NCBI GenBank assembly: GCA_031308135.1
Contig: JAHLJT010008756.1
Location: forward strand, 77,049,397 to 77,113,396
Source: Acheta domesticus
Lineage: Eukaryota > Arthropoda > Insecta > Orthoptera > Gryllidae
Direction: 5' to 3'
DNA length: 64,000 bases
Shown here: one piece after another, positions 2,203 through 52,596 of the stretch
How positions within the stretch are numbered: position 1 is the first letter of the stretch
Layout: each line of letters begins with the position of its first letter
Position numbers and translations under genes: made by a program
Notes under the pieces: model-generated
What the model was told of the DNA's origin: nothing
The model's input: the letters and a program-made list of their open reading frames with translations, nothing else
The model's database searches: none

Positions 2203-4318
2203 TTAAATATATTTATCTAATTTTGTTTCACATAGGAATTTAATAACTTTTTTACACACTGGAGTGGAATTCAATAGAGAATGGATAACCGAATCAATTT
2301 TTAATTTTTTTCTGAGGTTAGTAGTAAAAGGACATTCCACTAATAAGTGGGATGTAGAAATAGTTTGACCACAATATGGACAGGGAACTGGATTCGTCTT
2401 TTGAAATAAATAACAGTGACTCAAATTGAAGTGACCAATTCGGAGCCTTGATAAAATGACTTGATGTTTTCTATTAAAGTTCAGAGGAAGAAGAGGAGGA
2501 TCTAGTACTGAATTTCTAACTTGACGTAATTTTGAATGTGTTGATTTCCATTTCAAATCCCATATTTTTAATGCTGACGATTGAAGAAGTTTTTTAAAGT
2601 CTTGAAGAGAACCAGAGATGGAGTTATTGGGTAAAGGAAGTTTAGAAGCATTCTTTGCTGAGGAGTCAGCATCTTCATTTCCCTTTATTCCTCGATGAGA
2701 AGGGATCCATGTAAGGGTGATGTTACAATGATTTTGGGCCAAGGATAGAAGACGTTCTTGAATTTCTTGAATGAAAGGACTTTTTTATAGTTTATTTTGA
2801 ATAGCGGATATGACTGATAGTGAATCTGTGAAAATAACCAAATCTGACGATGTTCTGTTTTGTAAAAAGAGATCTAAAGCTTTAATAATTGCCCAGGCTT
2901 CGCAGGAAAAAATAGAAAAGAAGTCTGGTAAACGAATAATATAATTAATTTGAGGGTGAAATGAAATTATAGAACCTCCAGCACCTTCTTGTTTTGAACC
3001 GTCTGTGAAAAAAATTTGGTTATTAATGAATTTGTCTTGAATTGAAGAAAAATACGAAAAAACAGCAGATGAGGGTAAATCTGAATGTGGAATATTTGTA
3101 AAATCTAGATTAATTGAAGGAGTGAACGAGGACCAAGGAGGAATGGGATTTAATCTTTTCTGATAAAGTAATGGAGGGTCAATAGAGAATTCAGAAATAT
3201 ATTTGGAAATTCTTATACAAAGTGATTTTGGAAGGGAAGGAAATTTATTGTAACCTTGCTGATTAAAGGGTTCAAAAATATATTTGTTGGTAGGATTAGA
3301 AGGAGAAATAAATGTTGAATATGAAAAGTTTAAACAATTTAATTTCCTCCTCAACTCTAGAGGAAGTAAACCAGCTTCAGCAAGAAGACTAGTAACTGGA
3401 CTGGATCTAAATGCTCCTAAACTTAGACGACATGCTGAATTAATGATTGGATCTAATTTTTGTAAAAGAGTAGGTTTTGCAGAACTATAAACTATTGAAC
3501 CATAATCAATTTTTGGTTGAAGAATTGATTTATAAATGTTTATTAAAATATATGTATCTGCTCCCCATTTTAATGATGATAATGTTTTTAATATATTTAG
3601 TCGAGCATAACAGTTAGCTTTCAAAGTATTAATATGATATTTCCATGAATGCTTTTCATCAAAATAAATTCCAAGAATTTTGCAGATATTGGTTCTCTTT
3701 AATTGCTGTTTATCAATCATTAAATGGACCGTTGATTGAAGAATTTTCTGATTTCTTGAAAAAATAATAAATTCGGATTTATTTTTTGAGATAATAAATC
3801 CTGAATCTTTTGCCAAATAGGTGAGTTGATTGAGAGCTCGTTGCATTAATTGAATTGTTAATTTTAAATTCTTACCGGTACAAAGAAGGGTAATATCGTC
3901 CGCAAATAAAAACGATTTAATTGGTGGTTTTATTACAGTCGACACTTCATTAATTGCTATTAAAAAAAGGATAACACTAATAAATAATATCCTTGAGGTA
4001 AACCATTTTCTAATCCCAATTTGGAAGAAGTACAATCATTACATCGTACTTGGATATATCTTTTAATTAAAAAGTTGTTTATAAAAGCTAGCATATTTCC
4101 AGTAATTTTCATTTTTTGTAAAATAATAAGGAGACGAGATTTTGATATCATTTCGTAGGCTTTTTCTATATCTAATGAAACCAATATCACATGATGATTT
4201 TGAGAAAAGGCATTACAAATTTCAGTGTCTATGTTCACCAGATGATCTTGAGTTGAACGAAAGGGACGAAAACCGCTTCGGAGTGGAGAGAGAAGGTTAT
4301 TTGTTTCTAAAAAATTTT
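2203..4318 (-). pseudogene. LINE A ORF2, C-terminal half: RT fingers/palm, RNase H, CCHC
   Basis: Read on the minus strand from 4318. An RT block with SGFRPFRSTQDH comes first, then SLDIEKAYEMI, NGLPQG and the catalytic FADD (near 3897). RNase H follows with FFTDGSK and FTDSLS, then WIPSHRGIKGNEDAD, and finally a CCHC knuckle (CPYCG, then H and C). Three kinds of damage are visible. A frameshift near 3990 separates NGLPQG from the rest of the palm. A TAA at 2785-2787 falls inside RNase H, with homology resuming at once on the far side. LINE B replaces the junction at 4318. An inactive relic of ORF2. Confidence 0.88.
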
Positions 4319-6373
4319 AGATACGATGTTTATTCCCGAAACTTCTCCCAACGAAATCCTCAGAATAGTCAGTAAACTAAAAAATAAATATTCACCTGGT
4401 TTAGATGAATTTCCGGATTGTGTATTAAAAACTTGTGCATCTGCCTTTATACATCCGTTAACTCACATTTTCAATGCTTCTTTATGTACAGGAATATTTC
4501 CAGATATTTTCAAAACAGCAAAAATTAAGCCACTTTTTAAAAAAGGGAACAAAAATGATATTCAAAATTACCGGCCAATTTCTCTTTTGTCAGTTTTCTC
4601 AAAAATATTAGAAAGGCTTTTCTACTTACGAATGGAAACATTTCTCAGGAAAAACAGCGCGTTTTCAGACTCACAACACGGTTTTAGAAAATCAAAATCT
4701 ACGGAAACAGCCATTTTTTCTTTTCTCAAAGATGTTTCTTCATCAATAGACCAAAATGAAGTACCCATTGGAATATTCTTAGATCTCTCGAAAGCTTTTG
4801 ACGTTATTGACCATAAGATCTTGCTCTCAAAATTACCTTCGTATGGAATTCGTGGTATTGCCCTAGATTGGATAACTTCTTACCTTAAACATCGGACTCA
4901 AAGAGTAGAAATACCATACTGGCAGGAAAGGACATTACATACTTATATTTCCAATTCTTTGCCAATTGTGCATGGGGTCCTGCAAGGTTTGATCTTAGGT
5001 CCTATTCTCTTTCTGTTATATGTAAACGATATGCCCTCGTCTATTAAAAATGGAAGAACGGTTCTGTTTGCTGATGACACGAATGTTCTTTGCAAAAAAG
5101 AAGCAGTAAATAGTACAATTTCAGAAGTTTCAAATTGGTTTAATAATAACAAATTAATTGTTAACGAAAGAAAAACTGTTTCAATGCATTTTTGCATCTC
5201 AAATCGGAAATCGCATGTTTCATTGAAAATGAACAATATGCAATTAGCTGATGTTGAGGCAACAAAATTTTTAGGTCTTTCAATTCAATCAAACCTCAAA
5301 TGGAATGTACATATAACAGAATTAAACACTAAATTAAGTTCACTATGCTATGCATTCAGAATTCTTTCAAATTCTGTCAGCCTTCATGCAGCTCGTTGCG
5401 TTTATTTTGCAAATGTGCATTCCCGCCTGAGATATGGCATAATATTCTGGGGAAGCTCATCCTGTAGTATTCAGACCTTCAGATGGCAAAAGAAAATTAT
5501 TCGAATAATGAAAAAATGCCTTCCAAGTGATTCCTGCAAGCCTCTTTTCACTGAGCTGGGAATCTTACCATTGCCTTGTCTATTTATTTACGAATCTGTA
5601 ATATTTGTCAAAAATGACCTACTTAACGGAGGGAACATATTTTCATGCAATATTGATATTTATAATTACAACACACGCCGTAGAAATCACGTGCATCAAG
5701 TGTCAGTATCAACAGCTCAGTACAAGAAATCAACATACAATACATGTACGTTACTTTACAACGCATTGCCAGATGACATAAAACAATTAAAGTCGGTATA
5801 CAAATTTAAGTTAAAAGTAAAATCTTTTCTGCTGCAAAACTGTTTCTATACAATTAGAGACTATACTGATCGTGAAAAAGAAAAATAATGTTTAATGTAA
5901 CAAAACAAAGATATATAATGAATTAGTTTATGTTTGCATTGTATACATTTAAAAAAATATTTAATACGCCTGTAACAAGTAATGTACTTCAGCTTCCGGG
6001 TCAATGAACCCCATCTCGATCAGGTTTTTGTCCAGTTTCCCTGATCCATTGAGCAAATGCTGAGATGGCCCCTTGTTTTGCTTCTGGACGTAAATGTAGC
6101 TTCACTGTGCGCACGTTTTGTTGAGCGCTCCTTTTGCTTGTAGTTCATTTACAGTTGAAATTGATTTTCTATAACTCTAGAACAAACATTTTTCAAATAT
6201 CTTTATTTTCTAAAATAATTATTTTCTAAATTCATTTTTTCGTTTTTTTATTATTATTATTTTTTTTATAAAATTCTGGTCCTCAAGAAAATGTGCGCAG
6301 ATAAATTTCTTTCCCCACACGTCATATACAGTTTTTACTGTTTTTTTGACAAATAAATAAAATAAATAAATAC
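4319..6373 (+). mobile_element. LINE B: 5'-truncated Jockey/CR1-like LINE nested inside LINE A
   Basis: Inserted in the opposite orientation into LINE A's RT: LINE A codons (…RLKWYL) end at 6374 and resume at 4318 (NFLETNN). The 3' end is a short AAATA-type tail (6352-6373), typical of CR1-like and RTE-like elements. The 3' UTR is about 460 bases. The endonuclease and ORF1 are absent. Its reading frame is unbroken over 1.56 kb, so it is younger than its host LINE. A target duplication is not clear by eye. Confidence 0.85.
4326..5888 (+). CDS. LINE B reverse transcriptase (partial ORF2, 520 aa open)
   Basis: An open frame covering the RT and C-terminal region of a non-LTR ORF2. Visible blocks include the pre-RT helix region (KNKYSPGLDEFPD), NYRPISLLS with KILERL, SQHGFRKSKSTETAI, FLDLSKAFDVIDH (first catalytic Asp), GVLQGLILGPILFLLYVND and LFADDTN (catalytic DD). 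The usual GVLQGS has Leu in place of Ser. Downstream KFLGLSIQSNLKW marks the thumb. The first ATG is internal to the original protein and follows the truncation point, so this is not a natural start. There is no endonuclease. It is probably not expressed as a functional element, though the frame is clean. Confidence 0.85.
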   Translation: MFIPETSPNEILRIVSKLKNKYSPGLDEFPDCVLKTCASAFIHPLTHIFNASLCTGIFPDIFKTAKIKPLFKKGNKNDIQNYRPISLLSVFSKILERLFYLRMETFLRKNSAFSDSQHGFRKSKSTETAIFSFLKDVSSSIDQNEVPIGIFLDLSKAFDVIDHKILLSKLPSYGIRGIALDWITSYLKHRTQRVEIPYWQERTLHTYISNSLPIVHGVLQGLILGPILFLLYVNDMPSSIKNGRTVLFADDTNVLCKKEAVNSTISEVSNWFNNNKLIVNERKTVSMHFCISNRKSHVSLKMNNMQLADVEATKFLGLSIQSNLKWNVHITELNTKLSSLCYAFRILSNSVSLHAARCVYFANVHSRLRYGIIFWGSSSCSIQTFRWQKKIIRIMKKCLPSDSCKPLFTELGILPLPCLFIYESVIFVKNDLLNGGNIFSCNIDIYNYNTRRRNHVHQVSVSTAQYKKSTYNTCTLLYNALPDDIKQLKSVYKFKLKVKSFLLQNCFYTIRDYTDREKEK

Positions 6374-9065: not shown

Positions 9066-10282
9066 TGCGTCAAGCTGGAACAGCCATGTCAGCTCACCGG
9101 AATGAAACATGTCTAATGACTTATTGCTAATTAATTGCCAATTAATTGCCACAATTTCGAATTAATTGCCACGAATCTTAAGGGCGAAAACGGGTGTGAG
9201 CAGGCTTGACGCGAACGCCAGCACACACATAAGTGAAATTCTGGTCGCAGGCCAGCGGAAACACTCAGATAATTTAATGCTAATTAATTGCCACAATTTC
9301 GAATTAATTGCCACGTATCTTCAGACCGAAAACGGGTGTGAGCTGGCTTGACGCGAATGTTTCAGTTTTTAACACTTCTTTCTCATAAGCAGCAAAGGCA
9401 ATTAATTTGTGTTTATTACAAAAAATTAGTATATAATGTGTATTAATTATGTTCTTGGCTTGGTTCGATTGTGCTCGTTGGTTCTGTCTACAAACATATT
9501 TAAATATCGTGCATGGTTGAATATTTTTTAGTTTTTAACCATTTTTTCTCATAAACGGCAACGGCAATTAATTCGTGTTTGTGGTAAACAATTAGTATAT
9601 AATTCGTATTAATTATGTTCTTGGTTTGGTTCGATTGTGCTCGTTGGTTCTGTCTACAAACATATTTGGATATCTGGCATAGTTGAATATGTTCCAGTTT
9701 TTAACAATTATTTTTCCATAAACGGCAATGGCAATTAATTCGTTAATTGTTTACCAGAAACACGAATTAACTGCCATTGCCGTTTATGGAAAAATAATTG
9801 TTAAAAACTGAAACACATTCAACCATGCAAGATATTCAAATACGTTTGAAGAGAGAACCAACGAGCACAATCGAACCAAACCGAGTACATAATTAATACA
9901 CATTAAATACTAACTTTTTATAATAAACACAAATTAATTGCCGTTGCTGTTTATGAGAAAAAAGTGTTAATACTGAAACATTCGCGTCAAGCCAGCTCGC
10001 ACCCGTTTTCGCCCTGAAGATACGTGGCAATTAATTCGAAATTGTGGCAATTAATTGGAAATTAATTAGCAATAAATTATCCGAGTGTTTCCGCGGGCAT
10101 ACGACCGGAATTTCACTTATTTGTGTTCTGGCGTTCGCATCAAGCCAGCTCACACCCGTTTTGCACTGAAGATACGTGGCAATTAATTCGAGTTTGTGGC
10201 AATTTATTGGCAATCAATTAGCAATAAATCATTAGACATGTTTCATTCCGGTGAGCTGACATGGCTGTTCCAGCTTGACGCA
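9066..10282. mobile_element. Foldback element with long, internally repeated inverted arms
   Basis: The left arm starts TGCGTCAAGCTGGAAC (9066) and the right arm ends with its reverse complement (10282). The arms meet near 9748 around AATTAATTCGTTAATTG. Each arm contains smaller repeats. Outer units carry AATTAATTGCCAC and AAAACGGGTGTGAGC, present twice per arm. Inner units of about 170-185 bases contain TTGGTTCGATTGTGCTCG, twice on the left (from about 9362 and 9533) and once on the right (to about 9970). There is no coding capacity. This is the architecture of Foldback/Galileo-type elements. No target duplication is obvious. Confidence 0.85.
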
Positions 10283-26700: not shown

Positions 26701-29700
26701 TTCTTCTTTCTCATAAATATCAACAATGCAATGAATTATTATTTTTCTCCATGTTAAGCATTCAAAATGTCTTCTAACTCTGTATAAATAAATTACCGAT
26801 AAGAAAACTAATAATTAGGCAATTATGAACTTTGAGTTCAAGTTGACATTTGGCCGTCTCCATCCGCATCAATTTAGGCCATAATATGCATTAGATAAGA
26901 GTTAAGCTTAATAATATACTTGCTTTATAATGGTGTTCTCATAAAATACTGGTAAGTTACCATACAAAAATGAAACAAAATTTAAACAAACCTTGTTTCC
27001 TTTGTAATAAAAATCATGTTTTGTATCATAGAACTCTTTTATGATGGTGAAAATACGTCTTGCCATTAATCACCAGTATTTTCATACTGAAATCATTGTT
27101 TTATTTGTGTGAAGTTGCCCACAAGAGAGGAGCCAACGAAGAAACCTGTGATGGTATGGATCCATGGCGGAGGATATTACATAGGCTCTGGAAATACTGA
27201 TATGTATGGTCCAGATTATCTTGTTGAAAATGGTGTTGTAGTTGTTACAATGAATTACCGGCTTGGAGCATTAGGTCAGTTATGGTTCTCTCTTCTTAAA
27301 TTAAGTTAACGCTCAGTAAAAATGTACATGAGGGGTTACCTTTGCTACCTAAGGTACGCTTAAGTCATCATTTGAAGCAGTGTAATATGATCATGATATA
27401 AATTCCAATTTAGAGAAGAAAAATCATTAATGATCTTTGAAACAATCAGGACTACTATTCAATTTATTAATGTTGGCGATCAAACATGCTTTGGTAGTGT
27501 CATTCACTTAGTAAACGTTATCTATACTTTAAAGAAAATCATACAATCATGTTTACTATTTATGTTAATTGTCAATAAATTCTGTTATTTTCGGTATCCT
27601 ATGTTTTAGGACAGTCAGTAGAAAGCAGTGAATGTACGTATGACATGTATGCAAACATAAAAGCAAGATAAGAGGAATTCATGAAAAGTTACACACAATT
27701 TGAGAGCACATAATTCAGCTTTCACATAAATTTCATTTTGCAAATACATCAATTTTTAACAAAGAGCCAAGAATACATGTCTGGTTAATTTCTGAAACCT
27801 TATTTATCAAAATTAATAAAACACTATATTTGAATAGAGGGTGTAATATTGTTACCATTTCATATGACCATATTTTGAATTTTAAAAAAATCATCATGTT
27901 TTAAAGAATGATTAAGATCCTTCCTATGTACCCAAACATGTGAACAATTAGTTCATGAAACTCGCAATATAAAACAAGTTATTTCTCTAATTAAAATTAC
28001 ATGAAATACAATTTACTGATTACTTCGTTGTATTAAATAATTCAACTAATTTTCTTAAAAAATAAGATACTGAAAACAATTGAACAATACAAAAGTGTTT
28101 GGACCCTTAATATCTTTTCTTTGTAGGCTTTCTGAGCTTGGAAGATGGGTCTTACCCTGGCAATATGGGTTTGAGAGATCAGGTAGCTGCCTTGTTATGG
28201 GTGAAAGCCAATATTGCTGAATTTGGTGGTGATCCCGATAACATCACATTGTTCGGAGAAAGTGCTGGAGCTTCATGTGTACAATTACACATGATGTCAC
28301 CAATGTCAAAAGGTAGTATGCTTTTCTTTTTAATGGCCACACTGATAGTAAAAATTGTGTTTGAATTAATTAAATGGTACCTATTTAAAGATTCACTTGA
28401 GGTGATGTATTTTTCCATTCCTCAATTTCAAGAGCAATGTTGACATCAGAAATTTTCTAATTACCATCTTACAATGAAATATAGTTTAAAATAATTATTT
28501 AAATTGGTTAAAACAATAAGTTGTGAAACTGTATACTACATTGTGTTTAATTACAATAAACCCTCGTTAGCACGAACTCGCTTAACACGAATTTCGCCGT
28601 AACACAAACACTGGTTCCCTGCAAGGGATTACAGTAATGTAAACATTCATAATAAATGGATAACATAAACTCCAAATATTTCGGTCCCGTGAAATTCGTG
28701 TTAATGAGGGTTTACTGTAGTTACAAATAATGTTTTGACTAGTGTAATTTGGATTCTTCATCAGAAAGTTGCGTCAATTGTGAAAGAGCAAAAGTCAGGG
28801 AATAGTAATAATGTTTAGATGAAATAGAGGATTCATTTAACATTTCACTTATATGGATAACTCAGTTTAAGTATGTGATATTGTGTCCTTGAGTTGGCTG
28901 CACTGACGCCACCACGACCGGCGTTTGCTAATTAATTGTTGTTTGGTTCAAAGACGCCGTGTCGCTACATCCATGTATATTGCATGTATTTGTTTCTAAG
29001 TGTAATAATTATTCATTTGAAGAATTATGTTTCCGCCTCAATATATCACAAATTTGCGACGAGAATAAAAGACGTTTGAAAGGTGCAAGTTCTTTTAAAG
29101 AAAAAACGTAAGTTAAATAAGTGGCGAAGAGCGATACGCGGGCAACATGGCGGTCCATGCAAGTGGCAATGAAAATACTGGCGCCAACGTGAACGTGTAA
29201 GGCAATATTGGTTCCATGGCAGAGTTTCGCGCAGGGGACGATTGGGAACTATACCTGGAGTGTCTCGAGCAATATTTCGAAGCGAAATGCGTAGCTGAAT
29301 TGCGAAAAGTTCCAGTCTTATTGACGCTTATTGGGTCAGAAACATATAAGATTCTCCGTGATTTTTGTGATCCGGTCCTTCCAAAAACGAAAACATTTGT
29401 CGAGTTTGGCGGAATTCTAAAAAAAAAGTTTTCACCAAGAGTTTCAGGGTTCAAGGAACGGATAGAGTTTAACGAGCAGAAACATATGCCGCAGGAGTCC
29501 ATCAGCCAATGGTACGCCAAAATCAAGAGCAAAGACATCAATTGCAAGTTCGGTAACCAGTTAAAAGACAAGCTGAAATATAAATTCGTCACAGGGATGC
29601 ACAAAGGTCCCATTTTGGATCGTGTAAGTGAAGAAGAGCACACTGTGACATTTGCGGTAATCTACGAATCGGCGCTAAAGAAGGAAACTTCATTATCGAC

Positions 29701-32700
29701 AGCATCAACCATCGCAGTCAACAGGATGGATACCAAGGCAACAGGAGGCGGGCAGCGACGACAAAACGAGAAGGAGAAGCAGCCTCAGTCGACCAATCAG
29801 AAGGAGCCAAGTGAGAGACAGGAGATTAAACTTTGGAAAACTTGTGGCAAGCCAAATCATAGTTTTGTGAAGTGTAAATATCGGGAGTATCGTTGCAAAA
29901 AATGTTATGTCATAGGTCATTTAGGGCGTGTATGTAAGAAAGTCGATAAAGAGAACGACACTCCCCGTGGTGCAAAAACTCATTTCACGCAAAATGAGTC
30001 GGCAGTTGATGTTAATGAAGAAAATTTCAAATATATTGATATGTTAAATGTAGAGGGCAATGTGTCACCAAAACCGATTTGATTAACGCCAACCTCCAAG
30101 GTGTTAATATTCAGATGGAAGATGATTCAGGAGCCGGAGTATCGGTAATTTCAAAAAAGCTGTTTCAAGACAAATTTAAAGATTGTAGTCTAGAACCGAC
30201 GTTAGTAAGATTTCGCATGTATAATGGCAACGTAATTGTACCGGTAGGTCAAATATTAGGCCCAATCGAGTACGAAAGTCAAAAGATCACCGCGAGGTTA
30301 GTCATTGAAAGAAACGGTAACCGACCATTATTCGGGCGCGATTTAATGAAAGCTTTTTCATTAAATATAGTCAAAGTGAATTCATTGAGCATGGGCATAA
30401 GTGTGTTGAAATCGTTATTATCTAGACATTCAGGTCTATTCAGAGAAGAATTAGGCCGCTCTAAGTATGAAAAAATAACCTTAAAAGTGCAGGAAAATGC
30501 TCAGCCGATTTTTGTTAAACCACGGCCAGTAGCTTTTGCGTTGAAAACGCAAGTCGAGCGCGAACTTGACAGACTCGAGAAAAATGGGGTTATAAAGTTG
30601 GTAACAAACAGCGATTGGGGAACTCCATTAGTTCCAGTCATTCGCCTGGATGGTACATTTCGGTTATGTGTAGATTATAAAACCACTGTCAATAAGTATC
30701 TTGAGAATGTCAATATCCTTTGCCCCGAATCGAGGATGTATTTGCAAGGAGGTGAATTCTTTACCAAGCTCGATCTTTCGCACACGTATAATCAGATAGA
30801 ACATACAGACGAAACTAAAAGACTTCTTGCATGGAGTACTCACAAAAGTATTTATGTGCCAAATAGACTTCCGTAGGTCACCAAGCCAGCCAGTGCTATT
30901 TTTCGAAGAACCATTGAGAAAGTTTTGCGAGGTATTAAGGGGACAAGAAATTTTGTAGACGACATTGTAGTAACGGGAGCAAATACAGCAGAGCATTTGT
31001 CCAATCTGAAGGAAGTCTTCGAACGTTTGGGAAAATCAGGTTTTAAGCCTCAATTTAACAAAATGTAATTTTTTTCAAAAAGAGATTCAATATCTAGGTC
31101 ATATTATTGACAAAGAGGGCCTGCATAAGGACCCCGAGAAAGTACGAGGCATCGTGGAAGCACCAGTTCCACAGAATGCCACGCAAGTCAAAGCCTTTGT
31201 AGTCATGGTAAATTATTAGAGGAAATTCGTGCCAAATTTAGCCAGCCTTATGGCACCTCTGTATAAAGTCTCTGGTTCAATAGGCGAATTTCACTGGAGT
31301 GGGGGAATGTAGTGAGGCCTTTGAGAGGTGAAACGGGTATTCACATCAGAGGCGACACTCGTACATACTGATCCCTCATTACAGCATGCACCTAGTCTGG
31401 GACTGGGGGCAGTGCTGTTCACGTTTTTCCAGACGGCACAACCAAACCTATCAGTTTCGCTTCGAAAAAGCTGACAAAACAGCAACAGAATTATTCGGTG
31501 ATTCAAAAAGAAGCTTTAGCTATTTATTGGGCAGTAGGTAAATTCTATCAATATTTGATGGGCAATGAGTTTATCTTAGCTACAGACCACAAACCACTTT
31601 TAGCCTTGTTTGGGGAAAGTAAAGGGATTCCGCAGATGGCAGCGGGCCGTCTACAGTGCTGGGCCTTATTTCTCAGTGGATTTAATTACAAAATCAAGTA
31701 TATTAAGGGCTCAGAAAATGGGGGCGCAGATGGTCTCTCGCGTTTACCGGTTGGATCTGAGGATAATTTAGAGCAGGGGGAAGAGGCGGATTATTTTCAT
31801 TTTTTTGAGCGAAGACAAGATCCCTCTGGATGCCGAACAGATAAAAGCTGCAACGTTGTACTGACAGGTTACTGAGTAAGGTATATTTATACGTCAAAGA
31901 AGGGTGGCCAAAGGAGGTGCCCGACGAGCTAAAAGCATCTGGGTCGCGATCAACTGAGATTAGTATCGAAAATGGCATTTTAATGTTAGGATATAGAGTT
32001 TTGATTCCAGAGAAATATCACAGACAGCTGTTAGATGAGTTACACAGAACTCATCAAGGGATGGTCAAGATGAAGACGCTAGCGCGGCAGTATTTCTGGT
32101 GGCCAAACCTTGATAAGGACATTGAGATTTTTGTCAAAAGTTGTGACATCTGTATGACCCATGCAAGCCAACCGCCCAAAGCAAGATTAATTAAGTTTAA
32201 TGAGGCCAAGCGAGTCTTTGAGAGAGTTCACATTGATTATGCTGGTACTATCGACGGAAAGTAATATTTAATTTTAGTATATTCATTCTCAAAATGACCA
32301 GAGGTATCGGAGGTGCCCAGAACCGATTCCAGTAGCACTATTGAAAAGTTAAGAGAATGGTTTGCGCGATTCGGTCTTCCAGATTTGTTGTTTTCAATGG
32401 CAGGCAATTTATATCGGAAGAATTCACATCGTTTTGTAAAACTAATGGGATCGAGTTCCGAACATCTCCACCTTATCATCCCGCCACCAATGGCGCAGCG
32501 GAAAACACTGTGAAATCGTTCAAAAGCGTATGAATGAAAGGTCTGTCAAAAAGCGAAACAACGGTACTAGTATACAAACACTTTTGAATCGGTTTCTATT
32601 CACATACCGTAACACAGTGCATTGTTACACAGCCCAAACACCAGATAATCTTATGCTAGGTAGGGATCCCAGGACAAGACTGGACTTTTGTGAAAACACG

Positions 32701-50190: not shown

Positions 50191-50254
50191 TTAACCCGGG
50201 AGTGCTCGCAATAGGTTGACTCACGCCAGTGCTCGCAATGTATCTCACAGATAC
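50191..50254. repeat. piggyBac left end: TTAA, terminal and subterminal repeats
   Basis: TTAA target at 50191-50194, then CCCGGGAGTGCTCGCAAT (50195-50212), then a second GTGCTCGCAATGTATCT copy containing the small palindrome GTATCTCACAGATAC (50240-50254). Confidence 0.93.
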
Positions 50255-52592
50255 AGCGGAAACGTCTGTTGATTTCGAGTGATCTAAAGCTCTATTAACT
50301 AAAATATGTATTTTATTTAGTTTGTACATTCCCTCCAAAGCTATTTTTAATGAATCCTACACTTCTTACAACTTGTAAAAATAATTACGGTAGGAAAAGT
50401 GAAATTTGACGAAATACACTTCGAAATAATTAATCATATTAATGTATTTTAATAATATTAAATGCAATTATTACAAATGATTTTTGCATGTTCCAAACAA
50501 ACATAAATGTTACATTTTTGACAAAAATATTTAGATAATCTTTGTCTTTTTCCCTTTTTGCAAGGCTCACATTTTCTTCTTTTTCCTACAGACGTCTCCT
50601 GCACATCTGCTGTTTCTTTGGGAACAAATTGCGACAATCGGTCCTAGAGAGAACATATGATTGTATTTTCTAAATTGTCACTTGTTATAGACAAGGGAGA
50701 AAATAATATTGCCTACCTGAAGTGCTGTAGGAATGCCCCTTGACTTTTGAGCTCTCCTTTGTAGTTCTTCTTTGGTAAGGGACTGTACCAACTCTTTGAT
50801 GAAATTCCTTCTGTTCATAATTTTATTTTTATTACCCAAATATATAATGTGACCATTAATTGCTGAAATGTTAAGGATAGTGTAGAATATGACCATGGGC
50901 CATCTCCTAGTACATCTTGCAACACTGTAAGACGCAATCATTTCATCAAGAGTGTCAACTCCTCCTTTGTGCATGTTGTAATGAGTGATAATATCGGGTT
51001 TCATACTTTCTCCACTGCTCTCATCTATCCTGTCATCATAATGCATGCTTGATATCAAAATAACGCATTTGTTTTTTTTCGGAACATAGGACACTAAAGT
51101 TCCATCTTCATTGAACCCGAAAACTGAGCTACATACTTTGCGATTTTTCCCAGCAATAAAATGTGTTGGTAGTTCCTTCTTGTTTTTCTTCATGGTGCCA
51201 ACAAACGATAATTTCTTCTTCTTTAGTTCTTGGACAAGAGGCACACTTGAGAACCAGTTGTCAGCCATTATGTTCCTTCCAGTTCCATGAAGCGGCTCCG
51301 ATAATCTCATAACAACATCGAAAGGGGAATTACTCAAAGAAAACGGCCCGTCGGGCTGCTTCCCCACATAGACTTCTAGGTTGTGCAGGTAATGGATTCT
51401 TGAATCCACTGAAGCAAACATTTTTATGCCATAACGAGACGGCTTGGATGGAATGTATTGTCTAAAGCTGCACCTTCCACGGAAAGACGGCAACATTTCA
51501 TCAATTGTTACATTTTGTCCTACAGAGTAACATTCTTTACATCTTTTTATGAATGCATCAAATAACGTTCGTATAGCAGCTAATTTATCAATCTCTTTCC
51601 TTTGCATACGTGTGGCCTTATTATCGAATCTTATGTGCCTAAGAAGAAATTGAAAACGTTTTTTTGTCATTACTAATCTAAATAACTCGACACCCATTCC
51701 ATCAGTGGCCCATAAATCTTGAACATTTTGTTTGTTGCTTTTTAGAACCCCAGCCAGGTGAAGCAATCCAAAAAATGCTTTTATTTCTACAGCATCTGTG
51801 CTATTGGCATCTCTTTCCCTACCGTATGAATTTCTTACAGATTCAATAAATCTGTTGGTTTCCTGAACAACCATTTCTAACATTTCTTCAGTAAAAAAGC
51901 AATTCCAACATTCTAGTACTGATTTAGATTGTTTTGCTAATCCTCTAACTCCAGGTAAGTGCGTGACGATGTTGTGAGGCTTCTTTTTTGAAATTTTTGA
52001 TGGGGCATTCTTGAACCACTTCGTCATCATATCTTTGCCTAGGGAAACAAGCATACATTTCAAGCATTATTTATATAACGACTACCTCACGAGAAGAAAA
52101 AACTTACCCAAATAGAAACCTTCAAAAGAATGAAAATCGCTTTCGTCCGCAATACTTTGATCAGTCTCAGAATCACTTTGTCTTTGTTCCACGTAATCCT
52201 CACAATCAGTGTCAGAAGAATCACAATCCTCGTAATCACTATCATTGTTGCACAAAATTATATTCCTTATCATATCAACATCATCTGAATTATTCAAGTC
52301 AAATCTGTCTTTGCGCGAGGCCATGATTCGCACCGTATGCGTCGGGAGCTCAAAAAGCACTCACGCCAGTGCCCGCAATGTACCTGAGAGATATCGCGCA
52401 GCGCAGCGATCACGTTTCAACATCCTCACGGGAAGTGATTCATTGACAGGATGAAAATAGACTGCCAGGCGTTCTCAGAAAAGTACAGTGAAGGAATACA
52501 TGAAATATCAGACGACAAATGCAACGCAATAATTCAGGATCTGAATTTTACTGCGGCTTGTATCTCACAGATACATTGCGAGCACTCCCGGG
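50195..52592 (-). mobile_element. piggyBac element, apparently complete and autonomous (2.4 kb)
   Basis: Flanked by TTAA at 50191-50194 and 52593-52596. The ends are exact inverted repeats CCCGGGAGTGCTCGCAAT. Subterminal repeats of GTGCTCGCAATGTATCT type occur at 50230-50254, at 52361-52385 (a variant) and at the right end. It carries one gene on the minus strand, a three-exon transposase with all catalytic and zinc residues in place. TTAA target, ends and gene agree, so this is a typical piggyBac element with no visible damage. Confidence 0.95.
50458..52324 (-). CDS. piggyBac transposase, three exons, 574 aa, intact
   Basis: Cut-and-paste DDE transposase acting at TTAA. Exons on the minus strand are 52324-52108, 52038-50717 and 50643-50458. 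The introns (70 and 73 bases) have GTAAGT…CCCTAG and GTAGGC…CTCTAG borders. Joining them keeps one frame of 575 codons including the stop. It begins MASRKDRFDLNNSDD with an acidic N-terminus, as in the family. The catalytic aspartates are Asp252 (NVTIDEM), Asp332 (IMADNWF) and Asp434 (HKGGVDTLDEM); the spacings of 80 and 102 residues are close to those of the moth piggyBac enzyme (78 and 101). Exon 3 supplies the cysteine-rich zinc domain: Cys538, 541, 554, 557, 562, His565, Cys570, 573. Without intron 2 the protein would end early and lack this domain. Splicing is inferred, not shown. Confidence 0.93.
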
Positions 52593-52596
52593 TTAA
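52555..52596. repeat. piggyBac right end: terminal repeat and TTAA
   Basis: GTATCTCACAGATACATTGC leads into ATTGCGAGCACTCCCGGG, the exact inverse of the left end, then TTAA (52593-52596). Confidence 0.93.

Follow-up and report, generated by a model that had tools for sequence, protein, structure and literature searches.

Whether a mobile piggyBac element can carry introns in its transposase gene is the question raised by a locus of Acheta domesticus. The locus lies in a 64,000-nucleotide stretch of contig JAHLJT010008756.1 (hereafter the window), which contains a piggyBac element whose transposase frame falls into three pieces. This element is very probably an autonomous, recently active cut-and-paste piggyBac with a spliced transposase mRNA, belonging to a family that multiplied in a recent burst and carrying a probably older intron 1 and an apparently family-private intron 2.

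The element occupies positions 50195-52592 of the window (2398 bp) and has TTAA copies on both sides, with the left target duplication at 50191..50194 and the right one at 52593..52596. Its termini are exact 18-bp inverted repeats (TIRs) of sequence CCCGGGAGTGCTCGCAAT, the 3′ (RE-type) repeat at 50195..50212 on the plus strand and the 5′ (LE-type) repeat at 52575..52592 on the minus strand. At up to 3 mismatches, the 18-mer matches the window three times, always inside the element, against 0.03 matches expected, so the TIR is no chance match; the third of these, with 3 mismatches, corresponds to the subterminal repeat of the element itself. A first-pass annotation of this DNA reported an intact gene together with a TTAA duplication and exact inverted ends of 18 bp; all are present in the window sequence.

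The two ends share a subterminal plan. The 12-mer AGTGCTCGCAAT is found once in the 5′ end (bp 7-18) and twice in the 3′ end (bp 7-18 and, at 50228..50239 on the plus strand, bp 34-45). Each end also holds a 17-bp palindrome with 7-bp arms, located in the 5′ end at bp 18-34 (52559..52575, minus strand) and in the 3′ end at bp 45-61 (50239..50255, plus strand), and RE bp 34-61 match LE bp 7-34 at 25 of 28 positions. In T. ni piggyBac (IFP2), the LE palindrome at bp 17-33 is described as bound by a zinc-domain dimer, and RE bp 34-63 as almost identical to LE bp 7-35 (Chen et al., PMC7351741). The T. ni-type (IFP2-like) layout of an LE palindrome with an RE repeat of the LE segment is present here, and the two end plans agree to about one base, although the sequences differ. 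By analogy, both palindromes are putative zinc-domain dimer sites, the one in the 3′ end being spaced as described in PMC7351741.

A degenerate third copy of the subterminal repeat (85%) lies at 52359..52398 on the plus strand, ~35 bp ahead of the ATG, and is a possible extra transposase site. Internal sites are described as restricting activity in piggyBat (PMC11707139), while a third site is described as raising the activity of engineered piggyBac (PMC7351741), so an effect of this copy could have either sign.

The transposase gene lies on the minus strand and encodes a 574-aa protein of the DDD type once two predicted introns of 69 and 73 nt are removed. Exon 1 (52108..52324, 217 nt) begins with the start ATG at 52324, which has A at -3 and G at +4, and encodes an acidic N-terminal region with Asp or Glu at 22 of 73 residues and seven [ST]xx[DE] motifs. 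It is followed by predicted intron 1 (52039..52107, 69 nt, phase 1, GTAAGT...CCCTAG), which is placed by homologue alignment. Exon 2 (50717..52038, 1322 nt) encodes the catalytic core with Asp252, Asp332, and Asp434, as identified by Pfam, structure match, and homologues. Predicted intron 2 (50644..50716, 73 nt, phase 0, GTAGGC...CTCTAG) is placed by homologues and family copies, and exon 3 (50458..50643, 186 nt including the stop) encodes a linker, a basic stretch, and the C-terminal zinc domain with eight Cys/His ligands at residues 538, 541, 554, 557, 562, 565, 570, and 573. An AATAAA at 50312..50317, 141 nt past the stop on the same strand, is the likely poly(A) signal. The catalytic triad and the separate zinc-domain exon are as first described, as is the 73-nt length of intron 2; intron 1 is 69 nt rather than the 70 originally given.

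The transposase matches Pfam DDE_Tnp_1_7 (E=9.2e-78), and among solved structures it comes closest to T. ni piggyBac 6x67 (E=1.7e-89; residues 80-573, reaching the C-terminal zinc domain). A profile of alignment A2 matches 5lme (E=8.9e-4), which is also the best Foldseek match of a weak exon 3 structure model (pLDDT 73) at E=1.5. The locus combines three features of the piggyBac superfamily: a TTAA duplication, a DDE_Tnp_1_7 core with its Asp triad, and a C-terminal cysteine-rich zinc domain. Members of the superfamily also excise seamlessly through hairpins and integrate at TTAA. Among the best 120 of 1256 homologues, Asp252, Asp332, Asp434, and a fourth residue, Asp437, are kept in 119, 117, 120, and 117 sequences, respectively, and each zinc ligand is kept in 116-119. 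A database protein, P0003 (Ephemera danica, 890 aa), seems by eye to combine two pieces of piggyBac transposase in a single frame, perhaps adjacent copies joined by annotation.

The same 120 homologues bear on the splice model. Junction 1 is flanked by residues on each side in 112/120 and junction 2 in 119/120; because 111/120 read through both splice points, the model appears well supported. The joined query reads FYLG-KDMMTKW and ALQ-DRLSQF, and relatives contain, for example, FYLGKDKITKW (P0028) and SLQDRLKRF (P0046). If the "introns" were instead unspliced, they would be small insertions that broke a continuous frame, in a family mobilised by another transposase. The host assembly (2.33 Gb) lends this some plausibility, as its 41 other piggyBac matches (47-52% identity) include 17 that, judged by length, have an uninterrupted frame of transposase size (571-606 aa). 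In addition, the 22-bp end made up of TTAA and the TIR has 700 matches genome-wide (≤1 mismatch; both controls 0) versus 61 for the 45-bp RE-type end (≤2 mismatches), suggesting mobilisation in many forms; most such ends are apparently those of other elements, probably non-autonomous ones. However, homology is regained at each site once the sequence between the GT-AG borders is removed, and related ORFs start at the intron 1 point with hydrophobic leaders, as expected of a translated pyrimidine tract. The uninterrupted exon 1-exon 2 and exon 2-exon 3 junctions each have 0 matches in the host assembly at ≤2 mismatches, so no intronless form of the family was found, and processed (intronless) copies were rejected on the same searches. 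Unspliced insertions are thus a very unlikely account of the two interruptions, and splicing remains the preferred one.

A DNA search of the host assembly for copies, in which 40 of 1200 candidates were scored with the window included, returned matches that are all 97-100% identical. TTAA is present on both sides of 34/40 scored matches, and both TIR 18-mers are exact in 27/40. One copy, L036, has CTAA instead of TTAA on both sides, a variant target site. After L046 (which has N) and L047 (truncated on the right side) were dropped, 38 copies were aligned. They differ from the majority sequence by a mean of 5.6 substitutions per copy (0.23%) and from one another by a mean of 0.47%, and 182 of the 214 substitutions are private. 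Among the flanks compared, more than 80 bp is shared by three pairs from different copies and by two pairs lying within a single copy, and no others are related at this cutoff. At a rate of ~3e-9 per site per generation, a divergence of 0.23% would correspond to under a million generations. The "recent arrival" of the first-pass annotation holds as recent activity and is better worded as a recent burst than as an arrival by horizontal transfer.

Coding changes among the 38 aligned copies comprise 24 synonymous, 96 nonsynonymous, and 10 nonsense substitutions, which are not distinguishable from neutral (p=0.099), and constraint was not detected. The copies form a star-like pattern, that of a young burst. 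A complete frame of 573-575 aa is kept in 13/38 copies. Frame damage, related to another refuting sign named in the first-pass annotation (stop codons in independent assemblies of this locus), does occur in other copies, 25/38 being broken as assembled. Coding indel events number 35 in 23 copies, and since 18/35 sit in homopolymers of at least 5, further open frames may be hidden by assembly error. Intron 1 keeps GT-AG in 37/38 copies. Loss of the exon 3 frame in other copies had been named as evidence against the three-exon gene; the borders of intron 2 are kept in 38/38, and the objection fails, although at ~0.2% divergence such retention is no proof of selection.

These copies also speak against the idea of a lone gene, dead or domesticated, that has simply retained its ends. 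Transposase-domain introns are otherwise reported for PGBD5 and the ciliate piggyMacs (PMC3902484), so an intron-bearing gene could suggest domestication. PGBD5 resembles the present gene in being of piggyBac type with introns in the transposase domain (PMC3902484), but it is a single-copy domesticated gene of 7 exons with long introns, and the available text of PMC11707139 describes it without a zinc domain. The family here is multi-copy, with at least 40 near-identical matches, of which 34/40 lie between TTAA, mostly at unrelated sites, and its copies show no detectable constraint. A dead or domesticated gene is accordingly an extremely improbable reading, and a mobile family is strongly preferred.

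Further repeats are found elsewhere in the window. Long reverse-transcriptase-type ORFs occupy 4311-5888 on the plus strand and, as judged by eye, 2203-4035 on the minus strand; the former has a 98% identical relative (P0125) over 80% of its length, with 111 member sequences, and LINEs may be young too. A Ty3/gypsy-like polyprotein at 29201-32264 on the plus strand, recognised by eye from a gag zinc knuckle, reverse transcriptase, RNase H, and integrase, is split over several frames. Inverted repeats at 9369-9970 comprise one pair with 209-nt arms (89%) around an 18-nt spacer and another with arms of 182 nt, and may form a strong hairpin or represent a foldback element.

The ages of the two introns appear to differ. 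Homologues were taken as the best 120 of 1256 and the best 120 of 1396, with exon 2 alone as query for one set, and 156 distinct proteins were aligned. The query groups as sister (0.934) to eight proteins, one of them a Periplaneta americana gene model, in a FastTree of 120 homologues rooted at the midpoint; in the tree with 156, it is sister (0.862) to ten, namely P0052 (the P. americana piggyBac-derived protein 4-like), P0060, P0063, P0065, P0071, P0078, P0103, P0111, P0245, and P0246, which are 51-55% identical to exon 2. In eight of the ten, the sequence is an ORF that opens just 4-19 residues ahead of the GKD motif, at the point of intron 1, and the acidic N-terminus is absent. The ninth, P0052, is a gene model with an N-terminus and is presumably spliced, and the tenth, P0246, starts farther downstream. 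Outside the sister clade, the same start occurs in 2/146 proteins (Fisher p=2.7e-10, a test picked after seeing the data), a count that leaves out P0032, P0108, P0252, and P0265, whose short N-termini begin downstream or misfit.

Pooled, the leaders of all ten proteins with this start (71 residues) contain 68% hydrophobic and 1% acidic residues, versus 39% and 22% in the last nine pre-motif residues of 141 others. These leaders are most simply read as genomic DNA left unspliced, with an intron 1 at the identical position (an inferred position common to 8/10 of the clade), which would make intron 1 older than the family of the window element. Intron 1 is probably common to the related clade, on the evidence of ORF starts in database proteins rather than of DNA. 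The two outside proteins with this start, P0257 and P0269, form a pair placed elsewhere in the tree with weak support, so intron 1 may be either older still or gained more than once.

Intron 2 has a narrower distribution. The sister clade shows no sign of it, and no homologue among the 156 aligned is broken off at this point, even with exon 2 alone as query; the zinc domain is missing in 14/156, whose tails depart at points other than intron 2. Of 68 candidate copies of the intron at first look, 40 were scored and 40/40 sit in family copies, 39 of them adjoining an RE-type end (the fortieth is L041). Spread of intron 2 through the genome as an "introner" was considered and rejected on this count. 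As far as seen, intron 2 appears private to this piggyBac family.

Older intron-bearing subfamilies of the host were also sought; two of the protein-level matches at 60-74%, L078 and L079, were rejected as such because they belong to the same family, with ~98% DNA identity and frameshifts. Other low-identity host pieces match at 75-81% and 61%. The 17 unbroken frames among the 41 other host matches suggest coexisting single-exon families, and some of the 41 have shorter stop-free frames (e.g., 441, 496, 498, and 510 aa) in which introns may still occur. A search of IMG/VR and GTDB contigs by TIR pattern and by transposase profile found no relatives.

Reading through intron 2 yields a product that ends before the zinc domain, as the first-pass annotation stated, adding that regulated splicing could switch between a full and a truncated transposase; the product has 525 aa. 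The model for such a switch is the Drosophila P element, in which tissue-regulated retention of the last intron truncates an intron-bearing transposase and the truncated protein acts as a repressor. The P element differs in having an unrelated transposase and established regulation of its splicing. Here, a core-only product of retained intron 2 would act as a poison by dimerising with the transposase, and a start in exon 2 would omit the acidic N-terminus. The exon borders do fall near module borders, between the acidic region with its seven CKII-type motifs, the core, and the zinc domain. For T. ni piggyBac, the final 94 residues are described as carrying a nuclear signal, of which 522-571 suffices for nuclear entry (PMC2532691), the zinc domain at 553-594 is required (PMC7351741), and removal or mutation of the N-terminal phosphorylation motifs stimulates transposition (PMC11707139). 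Intron 2 maps between the equivalents of residues 529 and 530 of T. ni piggyBac, as counted on the 6x67 alignment, so exon 3 holds most of the nuclear-entry region together with the zinc domain. The 525-aa product would therefore be expected to stay outside the nucleus without end binding, at most titrating the transposase.

Several observations weaken the case for a switch. An in-frame stop also arises in 80.5% of shuffled versions of intron 2, any retained 73-nt intron would truncate the protein, 73 not being a multiple of 3, the splice signals are ordinary by eye, and 0/156 homologues are seen broken off at intron 2. The core-only product would follow from any splicing failure and does not argue for regulation; the switch is unlikely. 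Much the same doubt applies to a broader scenario in which a mobile piggyBac gained introns near the borders of three modules (an inhibitory acidic N-terminus, the core, and the nuclear signal with the DNA-binding zinc domain), alternative splicing tunes its activity by producing transposase that is core-only or short at its N-terminus, and intron 2 is a recent gain. Both introns are most simply taken as constitutive, and retaining either would leave no full-length transposase.

The preferred reading of a spliced, autonomous element can be set out as a sequence of steps. The transposase would be translated from a spliced mRNA, and dimers of its zinc domain would bind the palindromes of both ends, as the anatomy of T. 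ni piggyBac suggests. The core dimer would then pair and cut the ends, with the transposase acting as a dimer or tetramer, and the element would integrate at TTAA, as in T. ni piggyBac. The family has multiplied recently, with at least 40 near-identical matches and 61 RE-type ends, and its copies have since changed without detectable constraint, 25/38 with frames broken as assembled. Intron 1, which separates the acidic N-terminus from the core, is probably the older one and shared more widely, whereas intron 2 splits off the linker, the presumed nuclear signal, and the zinc domain.

The T. ni piggyBac transposase is a single ORF. Its element (6x67/6x68) shares with the present one the TTAA target, DDD core, zinc domain, and asymmetric ends, and differs in TIR sequence; the window element has an 18-bp TIR and a two-intron transposase. 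Some Repbase entries may have introns. The piggyBat element of Myotis lucifugus (9c0f) belongs to the same superfamily and is described with palindromes bound by zinc-domain dimers and an internal extra site (PMC11707139), but it is more distant (E=3.4e-35 versus 1.7e-89) and has another end layout. Mobile piggyBac elements are described as normally without transposase introns in the available part of PMC3902484; the first-pass remark that piggyBac transposases are usually intronless agrees with this and with the 17 of 41 unbroken frames in the same genome. The accessible text of PMC10813416 describes 212 piggyBac types with single ORFs, predicted by GENSCAN, which can model introns. The available portions of PMC8504770, PMC5601938, PMC3315735, PMC10140906, and PMC8086355 contain nothing on such transposase introns, and no mobile piggyBac with them was found in the open-licence literature searched. 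What is new is that intron 1 appears common to a related clade and that intron 2 is seen only in the family of the window element.

Introns can evidently survive many rounds of cut-and-paste, because an amplified family has two of them, one probably shared with a wider clade, even though mobile piggyBac elements are described as intronless (PMC3902484). Mining by single open frames of at least 500 aa would miss or truncate such elements. The young family could serve to test whether splicing confines a transposon to particular tissues. Intron 2 is a candidate intron gain within a transposon, one that could be dated.
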